Source: a virus
DNA length: 64,000 bases
IMG/VR virus record: IMGVR_UViG_3300047322_001237
Coordinates: 186,001 to 250,000 of that record
Strand: one strand, 5' to 3'
A program made the position numbers and the translations under genes. The notes beneath the pieces were generated by a model. The model saw nothing but the letters and a program-made list of their open reading frames with translations. It made no database searches and was not told the origin of the DNA. Position 1 is the first letter of the stretch, and the number at the start of each line of letters is the position of its first letter. Below are positions 4,592-45,631 of this stretch, piece by piece.

Positions 4592-6052
4592 TTACATCTT
4601 GCCGGCTTCAGAGAACTTTCCAGCCTGCTTCATCCGCGCTTCGTTATCGCGATTGACGTGGTCATTCATCTTGTCGGCGGAAGATTTCTTCTCGCCGGTT
4701 GCGTCGTCCTTCTTGCTGCCGACCTTCTCCGCCGCCTTCGAACAATCGTTAAGACCTGCGATACCCAGGGCCAATAGCTTCATGCCGTAACCGGCCATCG
4801 GAATGAACGGTTGATATACCCAGCTCGCGTAGGCCTTGTAGAAATTCACGAGCGCCCGACGTTCCGAGGTCATGCCCTCATCACCGATCTTCTTCACGAA
4901 CGCTTCCGACGCCTTTTTCAGCTGACCTTCCTTCATCTCGATCTGGGTCCACAGACCGCTGTAGAACTTGTCGAGAACGATGAAAATTTTCCAAAGAGCG
5001 CTGGCAGCGCCCCTCATGTCGTCCTTCCGGGGAAGCTCTACGGATTCACGCTTAGAAAGAGATTCTCCTTTCCCGGTCTGACCGAACGTCATCGTCGAAT
5101 TGCGCAACCGTTCAAGAGTTGCTTCAACCGTCGATCCCGATTCGGCGCGGAAAGATTTCTTCTGCAACTCGTAGCCGCCCGGGAAAGAGCGCTTGTCAAA
5201 ATCACTCTTGTCGCTCAGCTCCTCCAAACGTTTCGCAAGCTCTTCGAGAGCTTTTTCGGGTGCGTTCGGGTCAAAGGCGTTGAGCGCTTTTTCGATCGCT
5301 TCACCGCGTCCCAGCACGTTGCGCGCGTCTTGCTCGAAGGCTTCTTCGAAGTCTTGGAGAATGAACCCGCCCCGCGGCGACAGGAACAGTTCGCAGAACG
5401 CGCGATTGACGGACACCTCACCTTCAACGCGCTCCGGATAGCTCTCGGCTTTTTTGCCAGCTTTCCCGAGCGTCGCTCGGTAATACTCAAGCCGGCACTG
5501 TTTCCAAAAGTTTTTAATGTGCTGCCATACGCGCGCTACGAAACCGACGATAGCGTCCCAGATCTTCTTCGCACGCTCTTTGATGCCCTCGGCTTCCAGC
5601 GCGATGGAACGGCCGATGTAATGCTCGAGCGACGGCACGATGGCATCCGGTTCGACGTCGGTACCCGCCACTGCCATGTCACCGATCGTCTCGATCATCG
5701 CGGCCTGCGCCGGCGTCGCGGTTTCGATGGACTTCGCCACATGAGCGAGATCATCCAGTGCATCCGACGTCTGAATTGCGCGCTCTGCTTCCTTCAGGTT
5801 CGCGCCAATCTCAGCGATCTGCTCCATCGCCATGCCGAGAACCGTCACCAGCGATTCCAGCGACACTTCCTCTTCTTCCACCGGAGGCACCAGTTCAGCT
5901 TCGTCCGCAGGCGGCGTATCGTTATCCACTGGCGGAATCGGTTCGGCATCAGTCGGCGCCACAACGGTTTCGGTTTTCGCCGGATCCTGAACGGCTTCGC
6001 CTTCGCCGCTTTCTTCGTAAAAGGCCTCGAGGGCCATGAGTGTGCGTCGCAT
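4592..6052 (-). CDS. Internal virion (inner body) protein paralog 1
   Basis: 486 residues. It starts MRRTLMALEAF, continues with an acidic Pro/Glu/Asp-rich stretch (residues about 12-65), and reaches a maturation-type site ALE at 151-153 immediately before the conserved segment GIKERAKKIWDAIVGF. The same N-terminal LALEAF and the same site-plus-amphipathic-helix segment recur in the next three genes, so the four are paralogs. In phiKZ-like phages such internal head proteins are cleaved after S/A/G-x-E by the prohead protease. I infer that the acidic part is a removed propeptide. The product probably sits in the capsid inner body, perhaps ejected with the DNA. Confidence 0.75.
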   Translation of the reverse strand: MRRTLMALEAFYEESGEGEAVQDPAKTETVVAPTDAEPIPPVDNDTPPADEAELVPPVEEEEVSLESLVTVLGMAMEQIAEIGANLKEAERAIQTSDALDDLAHVAKSIETATPAQAAMIETIGDMAVAGTDVEPDAIVPSLEHYIGRSIALEAEGIKERAKKIWDAIVGFVARVWQHIKNFWKQCRLEYYRATLGKAGKKAESYPERVEGEVSVNRAFCELFLSPRGGFILQDFEEAFEQDARNVLGRGEAIEKALNAFDPNAPEKALEELAKRLEELSDKSDFDKRSFPGGYELQKKSFRAESGSTVEATLERLRNSTMTFGQTGKGESLSKRESVELPRKDDMRGAASALWKIFIVLDKFYSGLWTQIEMKEGQLKKASEAFVKKIGDEGMTSERRALVNFYKAYASWVYQPFIPMAGYGMKLLALGIAGLNDCSKAAEKVGSKKDDATGEKKSSADKMNDHVNRDNEARMKQAGKFSEAGKM

Positions 6053-6069
6053 GTTCTTTGTCTTCCAAT

Positions 6070-6111
6070 CGGAATAAATAAAAAGCCCCGAGACACGAGT
6101 GTCCCGGGGCT
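6070..6111 (-). terminator. Intrinsic terminator
   Basis: On the minus strand a long G/C stem (AGCCCCGGGACA pairing with TGTCTCGGGGCT, one mismatch) is followed by TTTTTATTTATTCC. It lies 26 bp past the stop of the gene at 6137-8275 and before the start at 6052, so each paralog appears to be its own transcript. Confidence 0.8.
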
Positions 6112-6136
6112 CCTAAACGCATCAGCGGACTAAGCG

Positions 6137-8275
6137 TTACTTCTTGCGCTCGCCGGTCTGATCGTCGTACTTCGGGTTCTTACGGGCGTCGCGTTGCTTC
6201 CCTGCATCCTTCTTCATGCGTTCAGCGAAGTCCTTGACGGTATCGTCGTAGTCCTTTTGCGTGAACTGCGAATCCTTCGCTCGGGCTTCTGCGCCGGCCT
6301 TCGCACGGTCGCTGGTTGCCTTGTGGCGAGCAGACGCCTTCTCGTCGTAGGCTTCGAGGCCCGATTCGACGAGGGCGCTGTAGCCACGGAGCACCTTGAT
6401 CGCATGCGTGAACAGCGGCACGAATGGCTGATACGTCCACTGCGCCCACGCCTTGTTGAAGTTCAACAGGGAACGGTAGTGGTGAATCGTCCTGCCCTCG
6501 GCCATCGCTGCTTCACCGGCCTTGCCCATGGCCTTCGTCGCGGCAGCCGACGCGGTCTTGATACGCTTGCCGAGATCGTCGAATTCGTGGTACGTCTTCT
6601 GATAGAAGTGTTCCATCGCCGACAGCATCTCGTCGAGCATGCCGAGGGTCTGCACATACGTATGCTTTGGCGCGACAGGGATAACGTGCGGAAGCGAAAC
6701 ATGATTCGCGACGAAGTGTGCGCCGTCGTTCACATACTTCACGCCCGAGTTGCGCAAGCGCTCCAATGCAGCATCCACGTCCTCGCCTGCGGTGTTCTCG
6801 TACGCGACGAGTTCGAGGTGTGCATGTCCGATCAGCTTGTCGATACCAGCCGACGAAGCGAAGCCCGCCGGATGCATGCCCGTGAGCTTGTTCTTCAGAT
6901 CCTGCGCGGCCTTCTCCGGGCGGTTCACGTCGAATTCGGCGATCGCCTTCGCGATGTCGTGACCCTTCTCGACCACACCGTTGGCGTACTCAGCGAACAT
7001 GCCACGGACCGTCTTCACGAAGCGGGGCAGATCCAACGGATGTGCCTCGAGGTCCTTCGCGCTCAGGCCGCCACCCTTCACGAAAGCGAAGAGCTGCATG
7101 CTTGCGCGAACGAAGTCAACGTGCTTCTCATCGCCCACCTCGCCGGCCATCTTCTTCAGCGCGTCGAGCTTTTTGCGCCACGTCGGCAGCGTCTTGTTGA
7201 TGCGCCAGTAGCCACGGATCTTTTCCCAGATGCGATCGATGAACATCACGATCGATTCCCAGATCCGCTGAGCCGTTTCCTTGATGCCTTCGGTCGCGAT
7301 GCGATGACCGATGAAGCTTTCCATCGAAGGAACGATGGCGTCCGGTTCGACGTCGGTACCCGCCACGGCCATGTTGCCTGCCGTTTCCATCAGAGCGGCT
7401 TCAGCCGGCGTCGCTTGCTTGATCGAGTCAGCCACGAACGCCAGATCTTCCAGAGCGTCGGAAACCTGAATCACGCGCTCCGATTCAGCGAGGTCGTGCT
7501 GGATTTCAGCAGCGTGTTCGCCAGCATCGGCAACCGCGAATGCAGCCTCTTCCATCGCGTACGACAGTTCGAGGCGCTCGCGCATCGATTCCATCGCTTC
7601 GCTGTCGGCTTCCGCTGCACCGCCTTCGGGAGTCGGTGTCTCATCGGCACCGCCCACGGGCGTTTCAGCAGGAGTCGACTCACCACCTGCATCGGTCGGT
7701 TCCGTCGCCGCCGGCGGGGTCGTATCGTCCGTAGCGGGCGGGGTTTCGTCCGTGGAAGCAGCCGGCGTCTCTGCCGTTTCCGGTTCTGCGGGCTGCGTAT
7801 CGTCGGTCGACGTAGCAGGCGTTTCAGCAGGCGCGGGCGGCGTTTCGGTCGAGGCATCAGCTGCCGGTGTTTCCGGCGTAGCATCGGTCGATTCAGCGCC
7901 AGCCACCGGCTCTTCAGCCGTCGATGCGTTGGTCGGTTCGGACGGCACAGCCGGAGCAGCTTCAGCCGGAGTTTCCGCAGGCGTCGGCGCGTCCTGCGCA
8001 ACCGGCGCCGGGTCTTCTACGCCGGGTTCTGCGGGAAGTGCAGGGGCGGCTGCGGGATCGGTGGGCTTGGCTTCGTCGGGTTCCGACGGCTCCGGGTTTG
8101 TGCCATCGCCCGTCGGCTCAGCGGGTACCGGTGCGTCAGCTGCCGGTGCGGACGCGACAGCAGCAGGATCTGCTTCCGGCGTCACTGCGGTGTCCGGCTT
8201 GTCGGTCTCAGCGTCCGTCGGCGAACCCGTGTTGGAGTTGTCGAAGGCCTCGAGGGCCAGGAAATGTCGTCGCAT
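6137..8275 (-). CDS. Internal virion protein paralog 2 with long Pro/Ala/Thr-rich propeptide
   Basis: 712 residues starting MRRHFLALEAF. Residues about 13-225 are low-complexity (Pro, Ala, Thr, Glu, Asp repeats), followed by a segment shared with the neighbouring paralogs that includes AVAGTDVEPDAIVPS. A candidate protease site, ATE followed by G, lies near residue 329, directly before the shared amphipathic helix GIKETAQRIWESIV. The mature protein after that site would be about 380 residues and mostly helical. By analogy to phiKZ inner-body proteins it is probably processed in the prohead. The low-complexity insertion is far longer than in the paralogs and explains the size difference. Confidence 0.75.
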   Translation of the reverse strand: MRRHFLALEAFDNSNTGSPTDAETDKPDTAVTPEADPAAVASAPAADAPVPAEPTGDGTNPEPSEPDEAKPTDPAAAPALPAEPGVEDPAPVAQDAPTPAETPAEAAPAVPSEPTNASTAEEPVAGAESTDATPETPAADASTETPPAPAETPATSTDDTQPAEPETAETPAASTDETPPATDDTTPPAATEPTDAGGESTPAETPVGGADETPTPEGGAAEADSEAMESMRERLELSYAMEEAAFAVADAGEHAAEIQHDLAESERVIQVSDALEDLAFVADSIKQATPAEAALMETAGNMAVAGTDVEPDAIVPSMESFIGHRIATEGIKETAQRIWESIVMFIDRIWEKIRGYWRINKTLPTWRKKLDALKKMAGEVGDEKHVDFVRASMQLFAFVKGGGLSAKDLEAHPLDLPRFVKTVRGMFAEYANGVVEKGHDIAKAIAEFDVNRPEKAAQDLKNKLTGMHPAGFASSAGIDKLIGHAHLELVAYENTAGEDVDAALERLRNSGVKYVNDGAHFVANHVSLPHVIPVAPKHTYVQTLGMLDEMLSAMEHFYQKTYHEFDDLGKRIKTASAAATKAMGKAGEAAMAEGRTIHHYRSLLNFNKAWAQWTYQPFVPLFTHAIKVLRGYSALVESGLEAYDEKASARHKATSDRAKAGAEARAKDSQFTQKDYDDTVKDFAERMKKDAGKQRDARKNPKYDDQTGERKK

Positions 8276-8295
8276 TGTTGTCTACCTTACGTTTC

Positions 8296-8347
8296 AAAAG
8301 AGACCCATGGCAGAGCGCTCGCGGCGCACGCGCCACGAGTCTCTTTG
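8296..8347 (-). terminator. Hairpin terminator between paralogs
   Basis: AAAGAGAC (8297-8304) pairs with GTCTCTTT (8339-8346), with further G/C pairing inside. On the minus strand the stem ends in TCTCTTTTG. It lies between the stop of the gene at 8357-9739 and the start at 8275. Confidence 0.6.
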
Positions 8348-8356
8348 TCGGGCGTA

Positions 8357-9739
8357 TTACGCCGGGAGCAGCGGATGCTCGGGCACCGGTACGCCGTGAC
8401 GTTCCTTCTGGACCACGTGCTCGAGGTCGTAGCACTTGATCGATTCCTGGACGCGGGCGATGCCGCTGCGCAGGTTCGTGAGCGTGAGGCTCGTCATCTG
8501 GAGCAACGGTTGATTGATCCAGTGGCAGAAGGCGGCGTTGAAGGCGAGCATCGCGCGGTAGTAGGTCTCGACCACCTTCGAATGACCCGAGGTCTCGCTG
8601 TGATCCAGATCGCCCAGGGACTTCTCGGCCTTCTTCGATGCCGCGGCCAGATCCTTGCGCACGCGCTGGAAATCGCCTTCGTTCTTCGACTTGTCGAACT
8701 TCTCGATCGCATCGAGCTGCGCTTCGAGTTCCTTGACGACTTCTTCCATCTGCTCGACGGTGAGCGGCTTGCCCTTGTGGGTTTCGCCCGCACCGTTTTC
8801 CATCTTGCGGCCGCCGACCGAATCAGCGAGCTGCACGTGATGGGTCCGCAGCTTTTCCAGCACGCCGAGCGTCGTCGCGTCGCCTTCCTTCTGGAAGTCG
8901 GACACGATCAGGATCTTGTTGTGGAGCAAGTCGTCTGTGGATTGGGTTTCGAACTGACCCACCTTCTTCGTGGCTACCACGCCCGGCAGACGGCCGAGCT
9001 TCACGCCCTGGAGCGCGTAACGCAGCTTGTTGGCCGATGCTTGCGGATCTTCTGCGTCGAATGCTTCGATGCCGGACTTCGCCTTCTCGCCCATCGCGAG
9101 CACGTACTTGGCGTAGCTCGAATAGACCCAGTCGACGACCGAGGTGAACGTCTTGTTCGCCTGGATGTACTGCACGGCATCCGTCACGTCCTTGTGCGCC
9201 ACCACGGCGAAGACGCCGACGTGACTGCCTTCCTTCTGCTTCGACTTGGACTTGTCGATGGACTTGATCTGCTTCTTCAGTTCCTCGAGGCGATAGCGCG
9301 CTCGCGGGATCTGCGCGAAGATGCGCTTGAAGAAGTTGACGATCGTTTCCCAGACGTGAGCCAGGAACTTCTGGATGCTTTCCCAGATCTTCTTCGCCGT
9401 CTCTTTGAAGTTCTCGGTGGCGATCACGCCATCCTTGAAGCTTTCCATCGACGGGACGATCTCTTCGGGAGCGATGTCGGTGCCGGCCGCTGCCATCTGA
9501 CCGCACATCTCGGTCAGTTGGGTTTCTTCGGTGCTCGCATCCTTGACGTTACCCGCCACGACCGCGAGGTCTTCCAGAGCATCGGCCAGATCCATGCCGC
9601 GATTCACTTCGGCGAGGTCTTTCTGGATGCGTGCTTCATCGCGCGCGTTCTCGTCGATGAGGAGCATTTCCTCTTCGAGCGAAATCAACGGGCGCGCATC
9701 GTCCTGGACTGCTTCCAGTGCAGGAAAGAAATTGCGCAT
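8357..9739 (-). CDS. Internal virion protein paralog 3
   Basis: 460 residues starting MRNFFPALEAV. A short acidic propeptide-like region (about 10-105) ends in IATE at 106-109, followed by NFKETAKKIWESIQKF, the family's conserved amphipathic helix. The C-terminal part is largely helical, with a coiled-coil-prone Lys/Glu-rich stretch near 300-340. It shares the N-terminal leader and central block with the genes on either side. I infer an inner-body protein matured after the S/A-x-E type site. No enzymatic motif is visible. Confidence 0.75.
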   Translation of the reverse strand: MRNFFPALEAVQDDARPLISLEEEMLLIDENARDEARIQKDLAEVNRGMDLADALEDLAVVAGNVKDASTEETQLTEMCGQMAAAGTDIAPEEIVPSMESFKDGVIATENFKETAKKIWESIQKFLAHVWETIVNFFKRIFAQIPRARYRLEELKKQIKSIDKSKSKQKEGSHVGVFAVVAHKDVTDAVQYIQANKTFTSVVDWVYSSYAKYVLAMGEKAKSGIEAFDAEDPQASANKLRYALQGVKLGRLPGVVATKKVGQFETQSTDDLLHNKILIVSDFQKEGDATTLGVLEKLRTHHVQLADSVGGRKMENGAGETHKGKPLTVEQMEEVVKELEAQLDAIEKFDKSKNEGDFQRVRKDLAAASKKAEKSLGDLDHSETSGHSKVVETYYRAMLAFNAAFCHWINQPLLQMTSLTLTNLRSGIARVQESIKCYDLEHVVQKERHGVPVPEHPLLPA

Positions 9740-9763
9740 GATTGCTTGAACCTTTCAAATGAA

Positions 9764-9808
9764 GGAATAAAACCTGAGACTCCAGGAAACATCCCCGGAG
9801 TCTCAGGT
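9764..9808 (-). terminator. Intrinsic terminator
   Basis: A 12-bp perfect stem, ACCTGAGACTCC (9772-9783) with GGAGTCTCAGGT (9797-9808), is followed on the minus strand by TTTTATTCC. It ends the transcript of the gene at 9853-11151. Confidence 0.85.
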
Positions 9809-9852
9809 CCTACCCAAGACGTGTAGAACGTATTAGGTCACCGCACGAGCCG

Positions 9853-11151
9853 TTAGGCCGCTGCCTTAGCTTCTTCCGGCTTGGCTTCTTCCTTCTTCGC
9901 GCCGAAGGCCTTGATCGACTGCTCGACTTGCTGGTTGAGCGACTTGCCGACCTTGACCGCGTACGAAGCGAGCGCCACGTACGGCGTGTCGATCAGCTTG
10001 AGCGCTGCGCGCGCTGCCTTGATCGCTTCGCCCTGGCCTTCTTCCTTCTTCTGCGCTTCGTCCATCGCCTTCAGCAGCTCGTTCTTCGCCTTCTCGCCGC
10101 TGGCGATCGCGCCTTCGTTCGCCTTGATCGCCTGACCGATGTTGATCACGGCGTCGCAGACGGCGATCATGTGTTCCTTGTTCTGGTGAACCGGAACGTC
10201 TTCGCCCTTGAAGTCTGCCGAGGTCTTGTTGAACGGCATGATGCCGGCCTTCGACTTCTCGATGTCCTTCGCGATCACCACGACGAGTGCGTTGCCGCCG
10301 GGCAGTTCTTCCGAACGGCCGACCTTTGCTTCGCCTTCGACCGGGATGCCTTGCGATGCTGCGTCGTGCACGGCTTGCAGGCCGAACGCGTCGTGATCGA
10401 GTGCCTTCGCGAGTTCGCCGATGTTCGACAGATCCTTCGTGCTGCCTTCGATGCCCGACGTCCATGCGCCGTAATCGCTGAACACCTTCTTCGCGACTTC
10501 AGCCATGCGCGCAGCGCCTTCAGCGCCTTCCGGCACTTTGCCTGCGATGTGCAGTGCCTTCGCCATGCCGGCGTTCTTGAAGGTCTTCTCGCTGGCTTCG
10601 CCATCGACCTTGCCTGCCGCGGCCTTCAGTTCTTCGGCGCGCTTCATCATCGGCTCGGTGTTGTCCCAGAGCTTCTTCCAGAACGACTTGATCCACTCGA
10701 TCGCCTTCTTGACGGCGGCGACGATCGTGGCCCACACCTTCTGCAGCGTTTCTTTCACTTCTTCCAGCGCGATCTTGGTCGCGTCTTCACGGCGCGAGAT
10801 CGAACCGAACGATTCGAGGGCCGGCGTCACGCGCTTCGTGTTGATGCTGACGCGCTTGTACATGTGGTTCAACGACGTCCGCAGGATCGCAGCACCGCCT
10901 TGTTCCAGGCCGCCGTGCTCGAGCGCTGCCTTCAGGTCGTCGCGGATCGATTCGAGCGCTTCTGCGGTGTCGACGGCTTCGTCGGTCAGCGCATCGTGTT
11001 CGGCCAGGCCGGCTTCGTCTTCGGCGATGTCCGTCAGACCTTCTTCTTGCGAGTTCGCGAGGTCCGACACTTCGCTGGTTTCGGCTTCTTCGGGCAGCAG
11101 GTTTTCTTCTTCCATCGCTGCGACGAGACCAACGTGAGAAATGCGACGCAT
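9853..11151 (-). CDS. Internal virion protein paralog 4
   Basis: 432 residues. The acidic N-terminal part (residues 14-65) is followed by two candidate maturation sites, ALE at 111-113 and ALE at 128-130, then EVKETLQKVWATIVAAV and a Trp-rich helix ending SFWKKLW, matching the layout of the three neighbours. The C-terminal half is Ala/Lys/Glu-rich and helical, ending in a Lys/Glu/Ala tail. It is the most diverged of the four tandem paralogs. A 14-bp palindrome lies 10 bp above the start codon. Role inferred: capsid inner-body or ejected protein. Confidence 0.72.
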   Translation of the reverse strand: MRRISHVGLVAAMEEENLLPEEAETSEVSDLANSQEEGLTDIAEDEAGLAEHDALTDEAVDTAEALESIRDDLKAALEHGGLEQGGAAILRTSLNHMYKRVSINTKRVTPALESFGSISRREDATKIALEEVKETLQKVWATIVAAVKKAIEWIKSFWKKLWDNTEPMMKRAEELKAAAGKVDGEASEKTFKNAGMAKALHIAGKVPEGAEGAARMAEVAKKVFSDYGAWTSGIEGSTKDLSNIGELAKALDHDAFGLQAVHDAASQGIPVEGEAKVGRSEELPGGNALVVVIAKDIEKSKAGIMPFNKTSADFKGEDVPVHQNKEHMIAVCDAVINIGQAIKANEGAIASGEKAKNELLKAMDEAQKKEEGQGEAIKAARAALKLIDTPYVALASYAVKVGKSLNQQVEQSIKAFGAKKEEAKPEEAKAAA

Positions 11152-18661: not shown

Positions 18662-20071
18662 TCAGCGAAGCTCTTGCAGACGCTTGCGGTACGACTTCAG
18701 TTGCTCGACTGCAGTCTTCCAACCCGCCGGCGGCTTCTTGTCCTCGTCTTCGAGATGGGCGACAACCTTCCTCGCCACCTCTTCAGCGAACGCAACAGCC
18801 TGCACAGCAAGATAGGATAGGTGTCCAGTGTAGTACTGGACCTGAGCCATGATCGCCTGCAGATCCGCCAAGTCCTTGCCCAACACGAAAATCGCATGAC
18901 GCAAGTCGGAGCCGATCGTCGTGGAGTGCGCTCCCTCGGCACCATCCATGGAGAAGCGCTTCGCAGCGACTTCCATCTCGGTCAGATGCTCACGCATCGT
19001 AGCCATGGGGGTGACGACCGAACGCATCTCGAGCAGTAGCTTTGGAACCTCCGCCTGCTTGAACGCCTCTTCGATCACCCCGAAGAGCTTGTCGAAGTTG
19101 AGGTCCTCTTGCGCCCGCTTTCCCTCAGCCGAGGCTCGTAGATTGGTGATCTCCGAGGAGAGGGCGTTGAGCGACATCTTCCGGCCAGCGTGCTCGACTT
19201 CCATCGGCTGAAGCAGTGGTTTCAGCGCCGCGACGTTCTTCATCTTGTCGATGGCGAAGTTCGGCTGCTTCAAGTCCCGCTCAGCGATGTCCTGAAGCAA
19301 CGCGATACGCTGCTGCATCACGAGCTTGAGACTGGTGAAGAGCGGTGCAATCCGCATCATCTCCTGCGAATACTCGCCCTTGCTGACGATGTCATGGAAC
19401 ACCGGATCTCGCTGGCCCAAGAACATGAGGACCCGCTGATCCCGTGCCTCCTGCTTGAAGAACGTGTCGATCACCCGCTGCATCGTGAAGATGCCTTCCG
19501 TGCTATCCCCCGCGTACTCGCTGTCGGGCTTCATTCGATACGGACGGTTCTCGAACGCGTGCATGGCCGTGCGCAAATCCTTCGCCGCCTTTTCGAACTC
19601 CTCGGCTGCCTGCTCCGCACGCTTGGCCTTCTGCTCCAGCTCGGCTTCCGCGTTCTCAGCCGTGGGCTTGTCGTCGCCGGTGAACCACTTGAAGATCTTG
19701 TAAATGACCGCGATAACGGCAGCGATGCCAGCCGCGATCAGGATCCAGATCCCCTTGCCGATCGATTCCAGCGACACCTTCAGACGGGTCGAGGTGGGCT
19801 GGACCGAGTAGTACGCGACGGGTGCCTTGCCACCGAAGTCCGGCAGAATGCGCAGGCCTTCCATCGCGAGGGCCTGACTCATGCCACGCTGTTCCTCGAT
19901 CTCCCGACGCAAGATGAGCAAGTCTTCGACACGCTCTTCCATCGCGAAGAGTTCGACCACCTCTTCATCGAACTCCGGCGCCACGCCCGTGCCGATCGTT
20001 TCCACGATCTGTGGCACCAGCTCCAGATCGGTGTCGAAGTCCAAACCCGCGTTCAGACTTTGATTGAACAT
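18662..20071 (-). CDS. Internal virion protein relative with one membrane span
   Basis: 469 residues from the ATG at 20071 (MFNQSLNAG), which overlaps the stop of the upstream gene by one base (TGATG). The acidic N-terminal part contains an AME site at 69-71 and SLE at 100-102, both matching the S/A-x-E maturation pattern. Straight after comes IGKGIWILIAAGIAAVIAVI (about 104-123), a strong transmembrane helix at the position where the four paralogs carry an amphipathic Trp-rich helix. A Lys/Glu/Ala coiled coil follows (about 135-180). I infer an ejected internal protein that inserts in a membrane after maturation. Confidence 0.65.
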   Translation of the reverse strand: MFNQSLNAGLDFDTDLELVPQIVETIGTGVAPEFDEEVVELFAMEERVEDLLILRREIEEQRGMSQALAMEGLRILPDFGGKAPVAYYSVQPTSTRLKVSLESIGKGIWILIAAGIAAVIAVIYKIFKWFTGDDKPTAENAEAELEQKAKRAEQAAEEFEKAAKDLRTAMHAFENRPYRMKPDSEYAGDSTEGIFTMQRVIDTFFKQEARDQRVLMFLGQRDPVFHDIVSKGEYSQEMMRIAPLFTSLKLVMQQRIALLQDIAERDLKQPNFAIDKMKNVAALKPLLQPMEVEHAGRKMSLNALSSEITNLRASAEGKRAQEDLNFDKLFGVIEEAFKQAEVPKLLLEMRSVVTPMATMREHLTEMEVAAKRFSMDGAEGAHSTTIGSDLRHAIFVLGKDLADLQAIMAQVQYYTGHLSYLAVQAVAFAEEVARKVVAHLEDEDKKPPAGWKTAVEQLKSYRKRLQELR

Positions 20072-20517
20072 CAGATGACCCCGTTCATCAGGTCGCACGC
20101 GAGCTGCGCCAGCGCGAAGATTTCGATCTTGTGTTCGTTGTTGAACTTGTGGCTGTCGTCATCCACCCATTCAGCCACGCCGAGGATGTTGTCGTAGAAG
20201 CCGATGTTCAGGTCAATCACCACCTGCTCGCACGGATGCACCGCATGGTAGCGGAGAAACCAAAACTCACGTGCCTGCGCCAGCGCATGCTTTACATCGA
20301 ACACGACTTGCTCGTTGAAGGCGGCGATGAGCTCCATCACCTGCGGCAGCACCGTGAAGTTGTAGTGCGTGCTCGGCACATCGACCTGCGCCGACGGGAG
20401 CGACACGAGACGCGATGCGGCCAGTGCAACGGCGGTGCCGATGATGCGGCTGCGATCGTCGAAGGACGAGATGACGGTGTCTGCGCGATTGAAGAAGGGA
20501 AGGAATTGCGGTTTCAT
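20071..20517 (-). CDS. Conserved hypothetical phage protein
   Basis: 148 residues beginning MKPQFLPFFNRAD. It is soluble and mixed alpha/beta, with no motif that I recognise. It is translationally coupled (TGATG) to the membrane-spanning internal protein below it and lies 21 bp below the metallopeptidase gene. The three are probably one operon and may act together in the virion. Confidence 0.62.
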   Translation of the reverse strand: MKPQFLPFFNRADTVISSFDDRSRIIGTAVALAASRLVSLPSAQVDVPSTHYNFTVLPQVMELIAAFNEQVVFDVKHALAQAREFWFLRYHAVHPCEQVVIDLNIGFYDNILGVAEWVDDDSHKFNNEHKIEIFALAQLACDLMNGVI

Positions 20518-20538: not shown

Positions 20539-21822
20539 TTAAGCGAACTGCCGAAGCGATGCGGCTCGTACGAAGAGGTCGTTGTTCGCGATGGTTTCGA
20601 GTTCGCGCTGCAACTTCTCTTGCGAGATACGACGGCGACGAACAGGCGAGAGGAAGTCACGCACATAGCCGAGCAGCTGCTGGCGGTCTTTCACGCCCGC
20701 AATGACTTCGTCGATCACCGTGAGGTCTTCGGTGTACGAGGCGATCTGTTCTTCCGTCAACTTCTTGCTCTTCATGGCTTCGACGAGCTGGTCGCGCACG
20801 CGGCCAAAGCGCACCTTGGAAAGTGCGTAGACGTCTTCTTCCACCTCCAGTGAGTCGGACGCGCACATGAGGAAGCACAGGACCCAGCTGACACCGTAGG
20901 TAAGCGGGCCGGCCGCCATCAGGGCGAGCTTCACGGCTTCCATGAACAGGTACGAGACCGTGCTGCGGTACTGGATGTGACCAAAGTCGCGCATGAGCTT
21001 GTCCAGTGCGGTGACGATGTCACGGCCTGCGCCATGGCGTGCAGCGAACTGGTCAGCCAGCACCTCGAAGCTGTTCATGTCGTAGAGCGACGTGCCCAAT
21101 TCCGATTCAATTTCGCGTGCGATGTTGGAGACGACGACGGTCTCGATCACCTTCTTGTCCGAGGACTTGGCGAGCGCTTCCGCGTCGAGGTCCTTCAGGC
21201 CCGCGGCATCCTTTACCTTCACCAGCACGGCTTCACGATCTTTGACGTTGCCCGATTGGTCCAGCTTCTTCGAGAGGCCGGCCAGGATCTGGTTGGTCGA
21301 GAGCGTTGCGCTGATCAGCTCGAAGTAGCCGAAGACGTGACCGAGTTCGTGCAAGACTGTCGATGCGACTTCAGCCGGCGTGAGCCGCTTGCGGAATTGC
21401 AAGTCCACCGGCATGTACATCGTGCTTTCGACGTTGCTGAACACGCCTGATACACGGCCGTTCTTGCGGTCCACGCGACCGAGCGGACGTGACTTCGCGT
21501 CGGCGATCAACTTGTCGCCGTCGGTGTTCGGCAGATATTGCTGACGAACCCAGTCCGCCCAGCAGCTAAGCAGCGGGTTGTTCTTGTTGATGAACGGCGG
21601 CATCACCGCGGGGCCCGAATCTCCCCACATGACCCGAACGTTCATTCCAGTGTAGTGGGTGATCAGCGTCGACAGCTGCTGCGCTGCCGGATGGTCCGGG
21701 AGGGATTCAGCGCTCAGGTCGCTCAGTTCGGTGAAGATCCCGGTCAACTCGCGGAAGAATGCGCCCGACTGGAAATCGATACCTTCCGTCGCGATCGCAA
21801 GCGTGCGTTTTTTCAGCCACAT
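20539..21822 (-). CDS. Predicted zinc metallopeptidase with virion-type maturation motif
   Basis: 427 residues. The segment VLHELGHVFGYF carries an HExxH zinc site (H158, E159, H162). E253 in SFEVLADQFA, four residues before D257, is the likely third ligand in the gluzincin pattern. A hydrophobic stretch, about 285-320, could span a membrane once or twice. The N-terminus has AIATEG (residues 9-14), the same S/A-x-E maturation-type site as the internal virion proteins, so it may be packaged and processed. A candidate phage-type promoter lies near 21905. The substrate is unknown. Roles such as cleaving a host envelope or stress protein are guesses. Confidence 0.72.
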   Translation of the reverse strand: MWLKKRTLAIATEGIDFQSGAFFRELTGIFTELSDLSAESLPDHPAAQQLSTLITHYTGMNVRVMWGDSGPAVMPPFINKNNPLLSCWADWVRQQYLPNTDGDKLIADAKSRPLGRVDRKNGRVSGVFSNVESTMYMPVDLQFRKRLTPAEVASTVLHELGHVFGYFELISATLSTNQILAGLSKKLDQSGNVKDREAVLVKVKDAAGLKDLDAEALAKSSDKKVIETVVVSNIAREIESELGTSLYDMNSFEVLADQFAARHGAGRDIVTALDKLMRDFGHIQYRSTVSYLFMEAVKLALMAAGPLTYGVSWVLCFLMCASDSLEVEEDVYALSKVRFGRVRDQLVEAMKSKKLTEEQIASYTEDLTVIDEVIAGVKDRQQLLGYVRDFLSPVRRRRISQEKLQRELETIANNDLFVRAASLRQFA

Positions 21823-21948: not shown

Positions 21949-23766
21949 ATGTCAAACGCAGCAAACCAGCAGGACATCAAGGGCTACGAATGTAAGCACG
22001 TGGTCTATTGCCCGCCTCCTAAATACGAACGCGGCGACTATCACCTCGTAAAAGAAATCATCCACTTTAAGGACGGCACGACCAAACCGAATGTCCGGAT
22101 GCTCAAGGACTACAAGCGTGACTTCTACGTGACGAAGAAGGGCTACCGCACGCACCAGGACAAGAAGGAGTGGGAGAAGATCGAACGCCTGGATAAGTTC
22201 CAGTCGACGCAGTCAGAGCTGAACTTCTCGATCGCGAAGGCGCTCGGGATGGCGGGCATGAAGGGTGATCCGCGCGTGATGAAGCGCTCGCCCTATCTAT
22301 ACGGTAGCGACATCCTGTCCACGTGCGTCATCAAGAAGATGTACATGGACAAGTTCCCCGACCTGAACACGCAGTACAGCGTGGCGTCTTTCGACATTGA
22401 GGCGGACGTGGTCGAGGGCGAGAACGACATCATCATGGCGACGCTCTCGTTCAAGGACCGTGTCTTCACGGCTATCCAGAAGCGTTACCTCGCCGGCACC
22501 CATCAAGCCGTCGAGAAGCTGCAGCAGAAGTTCAACCACTATATCGGTGACGTCTACGCCGATCGCAACATCAAGTGGGAAGTGCTGGAAGTCGACCGCG
22601 CAGTCGACATCGTGATCGAGTGCTTCAAGCGCGCGCACGAGTGGAAGCCGGATTTCGTGGCGATCTGGAACATCGCTTACGACATGAAGATGATGCTGAC
22701 GTGCTTGGAGAAAGCAGGGTACCGGCCGGAAGACGTCTTCAGTGATCCGGCGGTGCCGCTCAGGTACCGACACTTCAACTTCAAGCTGGGTCCGAACATG
22801 AAGGTGACGGCATCGGGCAAGAAGAGTCCGATTCCGCCGCAGGCTCAGTGGCACACGGTCTTCTGTCCAGCGAGCTTCTACTTCATCGATGCGATGTGCG
22901 TGTACTGGAACCTGCGAAGCCAGAAGGGCAAGGACCCGTCGTACTCGCTGGACTTCATCCTGCGCAAGACCTTTAAAGACAAGATCCGGAAGTTGAAGTT
23001 CGAGGAGGGTGCACACCTTCGCGGGATCGACTGGCACCAGTTCATGCAGAAGCACTACAAGCTCGAATACGTGATCTACAACGTGTTCGACTGCGTGTCG
23101 ATGGAGCTGCTCGACGAGGCAACGAAGGATCTGCAGCTGACCATGCCGAGCTTCGCCGGTTGGACTGACTTCTGCAACTTCAACTCACAGCCGCGGCGAC
23201 TGGTCGACAAGCTGCACTACTACTGTCTGGAAGAGGCGGAAGAGAAGCGGGTGATCGGCAGCACTTCGGACGAGATGAAAACGGAGTTGGACGATCTCAC
23301 GCTCGGTCTGAACAACTGGATCGTGACCTTGCCGGCTCACCTGGTTGCGGACAACGGTCTCTGCATCATCGAAGAGAACGACATGCTTCGGACCAACATT
23401 CGCGGGCACGTGGGCGATCTGGACGTGTCGGCTTCCTACCCGAATGGGGAGTGCGTGTTCAACATCTCGAAGGAGACCACGTACAAGGAGCTGTGCAAGA
23501 TCCAGGGCGTCAGTGAACGGACGCAGCGTTTGCAGGGCATCAACCTGTCCGGCGGCGCAACGAATGCCGTGGAGTTCGCTTGTGAGATGTTTGGCATGCC
23601 GACGCTGGATCAATGGCTCGAGGCCTTCGCAGAGACGCAGGGTCAGCAGTTCGAGATCCCGAAGTACACGAAGCTCATCAGTCGTATCGACACCGTCTCC
23701 ACAGCAGGCGAGGACTTCTACGACGATGACGAAGATGAAGACGACGAAGACGAATCAGATTTCTAA
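21949..23766 (+). CDS. Family B DNA polymerase segment: 3'-5' exonuclease and motif A only
   Basis: 605 residues. Exonuclease motifs are clear: FDIE with D149 and E151 (Exo I), N241 and D245 in NIAYD (Exo II), Y377 and D381 in YNVFD (Exo III). Palm motif A is DVSASYPN, with D492 and Y497-P498. The protein then ends in an acidic Asp/Glu tail. I see no motif B (KxxxNxxYG) and no motif C (DTD), and T4-type enzymes are usually about 900 residues. Either the rest of the palm and thumb is a separate gene outside the window or the enzyme is unusual. The expected role is phage genome replication with proofreading. Confidence 0.75.
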   Translation: MSNAANQQDIKGYECKHVVYCPPPKYERGDYHLVKEIIHFKDGTTKPNVRMLKDYKRDFYVTKKGYRTHQDKKEWEKIERLDKFQSTQSELNFSIAKALGMAGMKGDPRVMKRSPYLYGSDILSTCVIKKMYMDKFPDLNTQYSVASFDIEADVVEGENDIIMATLSFKDRVFTAIQKRYLAGTHQAVEKLQQKFNHYIGDVYADRNIKWEVLEVDRAVDIVIECFKRAHEWKPDFVAIWNIAYDMKMMLTCLEKAGYRPEDVFSDPAVPLRYRHFNFKLGPNMKVTASGKKSPIPPQAQWHTVFCPASFYFIDAMCVYWNLRSQKGKDPSYSLDFILRKTFKDKIRKLKFEEGAHLRGIDWHQFMQKHYKLEYVIYNVFDCVSMELLDEATKDLQLTMPSFAGWTDFCNFNSQPRRLVDKLHYYCLEEAEEKRVIGSTSDEMKTELDDLTLGLNNWIVTLPAHLVADNGLCIIEENDMLRTNIRGHVGDLDVSASYPNGECVFNISKETTYKELCKIQGVSERTQRLQGINLSGGATNAVEFACEMFGMPTLDQWLEAFAETQGQQFEIPKYTKLISRIDTVSTAGEDFYDDDEDEDDEDESDF

Positions 23767-24292: not shown

Positions 24293-24598
24293 TTAATCGT
24301 CCATGCCGATGTAGGAGCCGTTGGGCGTCATCACGGGCCTGCCACCGACGTAGGAGCCGTCGGGAGCCATCGTCGGCCTCCCGCTGACATAGGAGCCGTC
24401 CGGTGCCATGGTCGGCATGCCGCCAACGTAGCTTCCATTGGGCGCCATCGTAGGCCTGCCGCTAACGTAGGAACCATCCGGCGCCATCACCGGCGTTCCG
24501 TTGACATAGCTACCGTCTGGCGCCATCGTCATTTGAGCGAAGGCAGCAGGAGCTGCAGCGAGCAATACCACCGTGCACAGCGACGACAAAAGTTTCAT
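24293..24598 (-). CDS. Secreted 13-residue tandem-repeat protein
   Basis: 101 residues. It has a Sec signal peptide (MKLLSSLCTVVLLAAAPAAF) with a probable cut after AFA at residue 21. The mature part is six near-identical 13-residue units of the pattern MAPDGSYVxGxPx, the last one shortened. No enzymatic motif. The repeat type resembles small exported repeat proteins of Burkholderiales, so this may be a host-derived gene giving an envelope or secreted product. It is a monocistronic minus-strand gene between two terminators. Function unknown. Confidence 0.7.
   Translation of the reverse strand: MKLLSSLCTVVLLAAAPAAFAQMTMAPDGSYVNGTPVMAPDGSYVSGRPTMAPNGSYVGGMPTMAPDGSYVSGRPTMAPDGSYVGGRPVMTPNGSYIGMDD
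24297..24526 (-). repeat. Six 39-bp coding tandem repeats
   Basis: The mature region of the secreted protein is built from consecutive 39-bp units, the last one incomplete. Codon-level differences among units show they are diverged, not a recent slippage product. Confidence 0.8.
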
Positions 24599-44101: not shown

Positions 44102-45631
44102 TTACATTGCATTGGGGATAACGACTGACGAGTACGCCAGTGCGCGAGTTCTAAGCAATTCCTGATTCTTTTGCTGATACGCCATGTGCTTCTCGACGTC
44201 GGCGCAGTAAAAGGAAATGCATTCAGGCGTCTTTCCCGTCTTCAGCTTTCGAGTCCGGCCAAACATCTGCAGGATCTGCTGCTGACTGGAGATCGCCACG
44301 GACATGATGTTCGTGGTGAGGTTCGGGATGTCGACCGCGGTGCCTGCCGAGATCGGTGTCGTGACGCGGATGTCCGCTTCGATACAGTTCTCGAACGGGT
44401 CCTCTTCCACGTAACGACGCACGTCCAGGTTCGGATACTGCTTCTGCAGGAACTCCGTCACGAGCGTGCAGAATTCGATCGACGCGCAGAAAATGATCGC
44501 CTTCTCAGTCGGCTGATACGTCCTCAGGTACTTCGCCTTAAGCACCTGGTCAATCAGGTTGAGGTAGTTCTTCAGGACAGGCGGGTTCTTCATCAGGTAC
44601 TTCTCGAACACATGGTTCGAGTAGTTACCTTGCATGTCCTTGGTGCGGATGGCGTCAGGCCGCGCAATGCGGTAGAACAGGGCGGTCGCATTGGTGTAGC
44701 GGTCGTATGCCGGACCCTTATGGCGGTCAGGGGACGGATACGCGATCTCATACATCCGCTGGATGAACGCATCTTCCTTGTCGAGCGTTGCGGACAACGA
44801 CAGCGACTTATGGCAGTGCGTGTAGAGATCCACCAGGAAGTTCAGGTGAAAATCCTGGTGCACTTCGTCGATGAGGCGGAACCCCGATCGCAGCGTTTGC
44901 ATCAACTCCGATGGACGACATGCATAGCCCATCTCAAGCGTCTGGTCGCCGTACTCCTTGTAGAGTTTGAACCAGTTCTGGATCGTCTTGTTACTGATCA
45001 GGACGATCTTGCTCGTAAGCCGACCTTCGAGCGCCATCTCCAGAAGCGCCATCAGATGATCGCTTCCGCGGATGATCATCAGGTCTTCAATCGCGATGTC
45101 GAACACTTCGCGGATTTCGTCACGCCACTTCTCCAGATACATCGGCTTCACGATGATCACCGGAGCAAGGCGCGTCTTCGCCACAGCAAAGAGCGACGTT
45201 ACGCCTTTACCTTTACCCGTCTGAAACTCGATCAGCTTCGAGACCGAACCGTCCTCCTTGAGGACGTAGTCGACGCCTTCATCCTGATAGTCGTGCAGGT
45301 TCCAGCTGTCGAAGATCTTGAAGTCAACTTCTCGAACCGGCGGCAACTCGACCTGCTCGATGTCGACGAGCGAATCCTTCAGGTTGTGAAACGCGAGGTA
45401 TTCCTTGAATTTCTTCAGGACGTTGATGTGATAGCGATACTCACCAGTGTCAGCACAATGCGTCGCATAGACCGGAGGCTTCGGAGGCGGCTTTGTCGAA
45501 TAAGGACTCGGCTTGGCGCGAAGGGGCTGCACGAACTGCTTGGTGAATCCGAGCACCGCGGGCATGGCGCGCGGCGTCACCTTGCTGACGACGAAGTGAT
45601 GCGAATGAAGACGAATCAGAAGTTCAGCCAT
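44102..45631 (-). CDS. SF2 DNA/RNA helicase (UvsW/DEAD-like)
   Basis: 509 residues from the ATG at 45631 (MAELLIRLHSHHF). The P-loop is the variant TGKGKGVT (138-145), motif II is DEVH (255-258), motif III SATLD (280-284), and motif VI QQQILQMFGRTRK lies near residue 455. The N-terminal 100 residues are a phage-specific extension. It probably remodels replication forks or recombination intermediates like T4 UvsW. It follows the RNA polymerase genes in the same order as I recall for phiKZ gp74-gp75, and is the last gene of that core unit. Confidence 0.8.
   Translation of the reverse strand: MAELLIRLHSHHFVVSKVTPRAMPAVLGFTKQFVQPLRAKPSPYSTKPPPKPPVYATHCADTGEYRYHINVLKKFKEYLAFHNLKDSLVDIEQVELPPVREVDFKIFDSWNLHDYQDEGVDYVLKEDGSVSKLIEFQTGKGKGVTSLFAVAKTRLAPVIIVKPMYLEKWRDEIREVFDIAIEDLMIIRGSDHLMALLEMALEGRLTSKIVLISNKTIQNWFKLYKEYGDQTLEMGYACRPSELMQTLRSGFRLIDEVHQDFHLNFLVDLYTHCHKSLSLSATLDKEDAFIQRMYEIAYPSPDRHKGPAYDRYTNATALFYRIARPDAIRTKDMQGNYSNHVFEKYLMKNPPVLKNYLNLIDQVLKAKYLRTYQPTEKAIIFCASIEFCTLVTEFLQKQYPNLDVRRYVEEDPFENCIEADIRVTTPISAGTAVDIPNLTTNIMSVAISSQQQILQMFGRTRKLKTGKTPECISFYCADVEKHMAYQQKNQELLRTRALAYSSVVIPNAM

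Follow-up and report, generated by a model that had tools for sequence, protein, structure and literature searches.

The window, a 64 kb stretch of a viral record of 278,988 bases, encodes a 427-aa protein that, as judged by sequence comparison, is a full-length syntenic ortholog of SPN3US gp45, phiKZ gp84 and 201phi2-1 gp145, and the source phage is by the same measure an additional holder of the known, uncharacterised gp45/gp84 zincin-like family. The family, its packaging, its cleavage and the peptidase prediction are all already published, in separate places; new, within the literature covered, is the joining in one protein of the mapped gp45 cut, an invariant M48-like site and a conserved hydrophobic hairpin. 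Because a packaging cut, an invariant site and a membrane-like hairpin come together in one protein, the gp45 family offers a candidate for an enzyme acting in the opening minutes of an infection, one that can be tested directly, which is relevant to early vesicle formation in nucleus-forming phages and to the roles of many packaged head proteins. The initial annotation described a capsid-packaged, host-delivered protease as a little-explored idea; this holds for the function, whereas packaging was published in 2017 and 2023 and the zincin prediction in 2021 (PMC7824862). The relevant features of the window are the following.

4592..11151, minus strand: four internal head protein paralogs, used as the comparison set, with N-terminal ALE/AME sites (phrog_2497)
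18662..20071, minus strand: gene in the phiKZ gp86 / SPN3US gp47 position (phrog_29544, 6.3e-14; weak match to Pfam PhiKZ_gp86, E 0.0018, below the cut-off)
20071..20517, minus strand: gene in the phiKZ gp85 / SPN3US gp46 position (phrog_30916, E 2.8e-19; position)
20539..21822, minus strand: gp84/gp45-family head protein, predicted M48-like zinc peptidase, 427 aa (ORF, phrog_2767, tblastn, synteny)
20851..20961, minus strand: hydrophobic helix pair, residues about 288-324, a possible membrane hairpin (hydropathy scan of 25 orthologs; helices of the model)
21052..21066, minus strand: EVLAD (ExxAD), with the predicted third zinc ligand E253 and D257 (E and D invariant; profile match to ZMPSTE24)
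21337..21351, minus strand: HELGH, predicted zinc-binding/catalytic motif, residues 158-162 (H, E, G and H invariant; long helix 149-189 in the model)
21784..21822, minus strand: predicted 13-residue propeptide MWLKKRTLAIATE, cut after E13 (E13 invariance; SPN3US gp45 ASE-20; disordered in the model)
21949..23766, plus strand: divergently transcribed DNA polymerase, conserved as the gene upstream of gp45-family members (phrog_3011, E 4.3e-217)

Besides the gp45-family gene, the record holds genes for a phage-nucleus shell protein homolog (G000:248546-250405) and a prohead protease (G000:10163-10738, E 5.8e-37, by homology to SPN3US gp245); together with the major capsid protein, pieces of a multisubunit RNA polymerase and the four internal head protein paralogs that it also encodes, these genes identify a jumbo phage of the nucleus type within the phiKZ lineage. 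A near-identity DNA search of phages returns a sole match of 51 nt, so that at the DNA level there is no close relative among the annotated phages. The GC content near the gp45-family gene is about 59%. The search for the shell protein was made with a single query and missed EL and OBP, both given as carriers in a paper; for this reason, no conclusion is drawn on the co-occurrence of the gp45 family with nucleus formation.

The frame at 20539-21822 is open throughout and starts with an ATG that is preceded, with a spacer of 8 nt, by the Shine-Dalgarno-like sequence AGAGGA; its coordinates had been given correctly at the outset, without the strand, which is minus. The protein matches phrog_2767 ('unknown function') with an E-value of 9.3e-87 over residues 2-426 of 427, and a tblastn search started with it reaches 259 phage records (about 260). 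The closest relative from an annotated phage is that of Burkholderia phage FLC9 (37% identity), and a viral contig carries an 88% identical copy; the scan of viral contigs used narrower alignments, the wide alignment being too divergent for it. The genomic context is shared as well: DNA polymerase on the opposite strand, gp84, gp85 (about 150 residues), the longer and variable gp86 and the large virion gene gp87 follow each other in the window as in the annotated relatives, some of which have inserted, split or fused genes (in BONAISHI, the separate small gene in the gp85 position is absent). In the SPN3US paper, gp47 starts at nt 44887 and the ortholog lies two genes earlier, hence gp45, the entry for which reads 'Head, unknown function'. 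Both phiKZ gp84 and 201phi2-1 gp145 are annotated as head or virion proteins, the record of the latter stating that it was found in virions by mass spectrometry. Beyond the polymerase gene, at 24293-24598 on the minus strand, lies a frame of 101 aa in which a MAPDGSYVSG-like motif recurs after a signal-peptide-like N-terminus.

The N-terminus of the protein reads AIATE-13 followed by G, and the suggestion in the initial annotation that this is a prohead-protease site gains support from the alignment. E13 is invariant in 26 of 26 aligned relatives (23-88% identity to the 427-aa protein) and aligns with E20 of SPN3US gp45, a mature-head protein for which all mass-spectrometry runs, of virions and tailless heads alike, showed the cut after ASE-20 (PMC10052503 Table 2; PMC5694885 Table 1). 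At P3, 25 of the 26 relatives have S, A or G and the remaining one has C; P1' is small in 24, and alignment columns 1-9 ahead of the site vary freely. In the AlphaFold2 model, residues 1-12 form the sole low-confidence, disordered N-terminal stretch, matching the predicted propeptide. The bare triplet would be weak proof of a cleavage site, given that [ASG]xE occurs at residues 8-24 in 9 of the 32 window ORFs checked; it is the conserved position in the alignment, not the presence of the triplet, that raises the motif above chance. According to the 2023 paper, seven conserved cleaved SPN3US proteins have phiKZ homologs that are all cleaved too (PMC10052503). Thus, this is almost certainly a head protein cut after E13 and, as far as conservation can tell, cleavage at E13 in the window's phage is very likely.

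Similar sites are present in other head proteins of the same phage (a slash marks the site). The capsid protein carries PALE/AYDE, aligned with the SPN3US capsid cleavage site, and the internal head paralogs begin with MRRTLMALE/AF, MRRHFLALE/AF, MRNFFPALE/AV and MRRISHVGLVAAME/EE. These four tandem paralogs (4592-11151, minus strand) are 432-712 aa long, and their similar N-termini resemble a common targeting peptide. The P3 exceptions among the orthologs are L014 (Goslar gp067), L019 (BONAISHI ORF97) and L044, with TME, VFE and CLE, respectively; all retain the P1 glutamate, and the prohead proteases acting on these three orthologs may have a shifted preference.

The predicted catalytic site is conserved to the same degree. 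H158, E159, G161, H162, E253 and D257 are invariant in all 26 relatives at 23-88% identity, so that the gluzincin-type site of HELGH with E253/D257 proposed in the initial annotation is present as described; a second set of 25 orthologs, partly overlapping the 26, likewise retains HExGH and ExxxD. The combination of HExxH with a third-ligand Glu in ExxxD/ExxAD is the M48 motif, and profile comparisons lead to the same family. A search of the family profile against PDB sequences places residues 248-278 on residues 411-441 of human ZMPSTE24, the ExxAD helix (E 5e-4), and aligns yeast Ste24p on the HExxH helix (E 0.018), and hhalign detects E. coli HtpX over the HExxH helix (P 6e-5) and BepA (4e-4). 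Searches started from the single 427-aa protein yield no Pfam M48 match at E 1, no meaningful phmmer match in the PDB and no match in NCBIfam. The curated Pfam M48 cut-off (20.3 bits) is passed by two of the ten relatives tested, those of PhiEaH1 (21.6) and 2050HW (21.2); because the 427-aa protein itself falls below this cut-off, it is labelled M48-like and is not filed as M48. The model, built from 26 sequences (pLDDT 79.4, pTM 0.81), has ZMPSTE24 chains as its best PDB matches, which fall short of significance when the full chain is compared (E 0.32, TM 0.18); its viral matches include orthologs and 'zincin protease' proteins of phage AR9.

Thus, motif and model suggest an M48-like protein of the ZMPSTE24/HtpX type. 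The weak Pfam scores of the single protein might be taken to indicate a chance motif in an unrelated protein; conservation among relatives, with invariance in dozens of them and with every profile and fold lead of M48 type, rules this out and leaves it a negligible probability. Zinc-dependent catalysis is likely from these residues, and there is a good probability that the protein is an active zinc peptidase.

Outside the window, at about 83.3-84.0 kb of G000:C1 on the plus strand (L086:1222-1899), the record encodes another M48-like protein, which is 225 aa long, carries HECGH and ELEAD and scores above the Pfam M48 cut-off (23.4 vs 20.3 bits). Its gene immediately follows that of a phiKZ_IP internal head paralog (L086:37-1203), and its N-terminal SISME/E fits a prohead site. 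Neither annotated phages nor viral contigs yielded a relative of it. Judged by this sequence, it is possibly a second packaged peptidase.

The third element is the hydrophobic helix pair after the active site, which had also been noted at the start and is indeed present at about residues 288-324, with a hydropathy that is borderline here (best 19-residue mean 1.59). In the model it corresponds to helices 288-308 and 311-324; in the hydropathy scan of 25 orthologs, almost every relative has it at the corresponding position, and in many it is strongly hydrophobic. It is not obvious what a helix pair of membrane character would do in the interior of a capsid. Hydrophobicity is no proof of a membrane destination or of ejection, given that the protein in the gp86 position also has a membrane-like helix. 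In that protein, the ATG of which overlaps the stop of the gp85-like gene, a hydrophobic helix (nt 19694-19750) comes after an SLE site (nt 19766-19774). This strong helix, IWILIAAGIAAVIAVIYKI, lies close after SLE, an anatomy shared with SPN3US gp47 in a protein that is otherwise hardly conserved.

Taken together, these observations can be arranged in a chain that we put forward tentatively, with somewhat less than even confidence in the whole of it from packaging and cut to ejection and membrane or vesicle proteolysis. A short N-terminal targeting peptide would carry the gp45-family protein into the prohead, where the prohead protease would free it after ATE-13; the mature protein, a predicted M48-like zinc peptidase that also bears the hydrophobic helix pair, would be kept in the DNA-filled head. 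It would most likely exit the head with the genome, insert into or rest on the host inner membrane or an early vesicle derived from that membrane, and cleave at least one membrane or vesicle protein as infection begins. The early steps, packaging and cut, rest on the SPN3US gp45 data; orthology, the invariant site and the conserved cut site were computed here. Ejection into the host is plausible in view of the retention in mature heads, the conserved hydrophobic pair and the fact that no SPN3US head cleavage of a type other than that of the prohead protease is reported; a literature search on phiKZ084, gp84 and gp45 found no report of their ejection. The fuller proposal, namely, that a virion-packaged, membrane-associated M48-type protease, conserved in nucleus-forming jumbo phages and their relatives, enters the host along with the genome and by proteolysis remodels its inner membrane or the early vesicle in the first minutes, prior to expression of any phage gene, is possible and, on present evidence, rather doubtful.

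Delivery has to be weighed against roles within the head. A role inside the capsid competes seriously with it, and gp45 may stay in the head, because the downstream genes hold the positions of phiKZ vertex proteins: the PDB capsid entry 8y6v contains phiKZ gp85 (chain E) and gp86, and Pfam describes both as vertex-binding (for the former, under the name 'vertex-binding protein gp85'); the window protein in the gp85 position has no Pfam match of its own. The conserved gp84-gp85-gp86 order and overlapping copy-number estimates would fit a structural partner of gp85 and gp86 at the capsid vertex or inner shell, with the peptidase fold used for binding and catalysis minor or absent. In SPN3US, the spectral abundance is 2.99 for gp45, 2.17 for gp47, 1.29 for the portal (12 copies) and 22.6 for the capsid protein (1,560 copies) (PMC5694885); our own estimate from these values suggests about 30-200 copies of gp45, which, overlapping with the abundance of gp47, is as compatible with cargo as with a vertex component. 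A purely structural use does not demand that all catalytic residues be invariant down to 23% identity, and phiKZ gp84, unlike gp85 and gp86, has no chain in the PDB; we consider this structural reading improbable.

The same location in the head is compatible with a second head-maturation protease that trims a specific structural or ejection protein in the prohead or capsid, its virion presence being a by-product. Such a role was proposed for the family (AMR59696.1) in the relevant passages of the 2021 jumbo-phage survey (PMC7824862), and both entry into the prohead by a short targeting-type peptide and operon partners in capsid vertex protein positions agree with it. However, the 14 cleavage sites mapped in SPN3US heads are all of the gp245 type and 42 head proteins are uncut, so that the visible head processing needs no second protease; moreover, the hydrophobic pair is unexpected in an enzyme of the capsid interior, and gp45 stays at middling abundance in the mature head. 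On balance, a maturation role appears unlikely, albeit not remotely so. If the peptidase is injected, its target might instead be periplasmic or in the envelope, as in processing of a DNA-entry conduit. This variant shares the evidence for delivery to the vesicle or inner membrane and draws on the membrane-like helix of the partner gp47/gp86, gp47 being essential in SPN3US; the protein has no periplasm signal, and we give this target a low probability. Delivery to the inner membrane or early vesicle is the reading that we retain, at the strength given above.

Among known systems, the closest is SPN3US gp45 itself (YP_009153339.1), a full-length homolog (28% identity, E 3e-27) in the same gene order, with HEVGH and ExxxD; its A-x-E cleavage site aligns with that of the present protein and was mapped to ASE-20 on purified heads. 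Its propeptide has 20 residues, compared to 13 here, and it is virion-proven, whereas the present protein is known from a sequence record. The syntenic orthologs phiKZ gp84, 201phi2-1 gp145 and EL gp52 also retain HExGH and ExxxD but are only about 19-24% identical by alignment, with SNE-10, STE-9 or GTE-15 in place of ATE-13. The zincin that the 2021 survey describes as conserved and uncharacterised in group 1 jumbo phages, AMR59696.1, is SEGD1 gp047, a direct member of the gp45 family; in the survey's passages on this protein, a maturation role is suggested and no link is made to the mapped gp45 cut or the hydrophobic hairpin (PMC7824862). The S80 prohead proteases (phiKZ gp175, SPN3US gp245) are head-associated proteases of the same phages but are serine-type and unrelated in sequence; the prohead protease cuts gp45 in SPN3US, and its homolog, which very likely cuts the present protein, is encoded in this record by a separate gene. 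Membership of the 427-aa protein in S80 is rejected, the only gp245 match in the genome being G000:10163-10738. With the M48 proteases (ZMPSTE24/Ste24p, HtpX and BepA), the protein shares HExxH, the Glu in ExxAD and long helices at the active site; of these enzymes, ZMPSTE24 and HtpX are proteases of membranes. Unlike M48 proteins, it has an extra N-terminal domain, a long spacing between residue 162 of HELGH and E253, a hydrophobic pair after the third ligand, a predicted prohead-protease site and a score below the Pfam cut-off.
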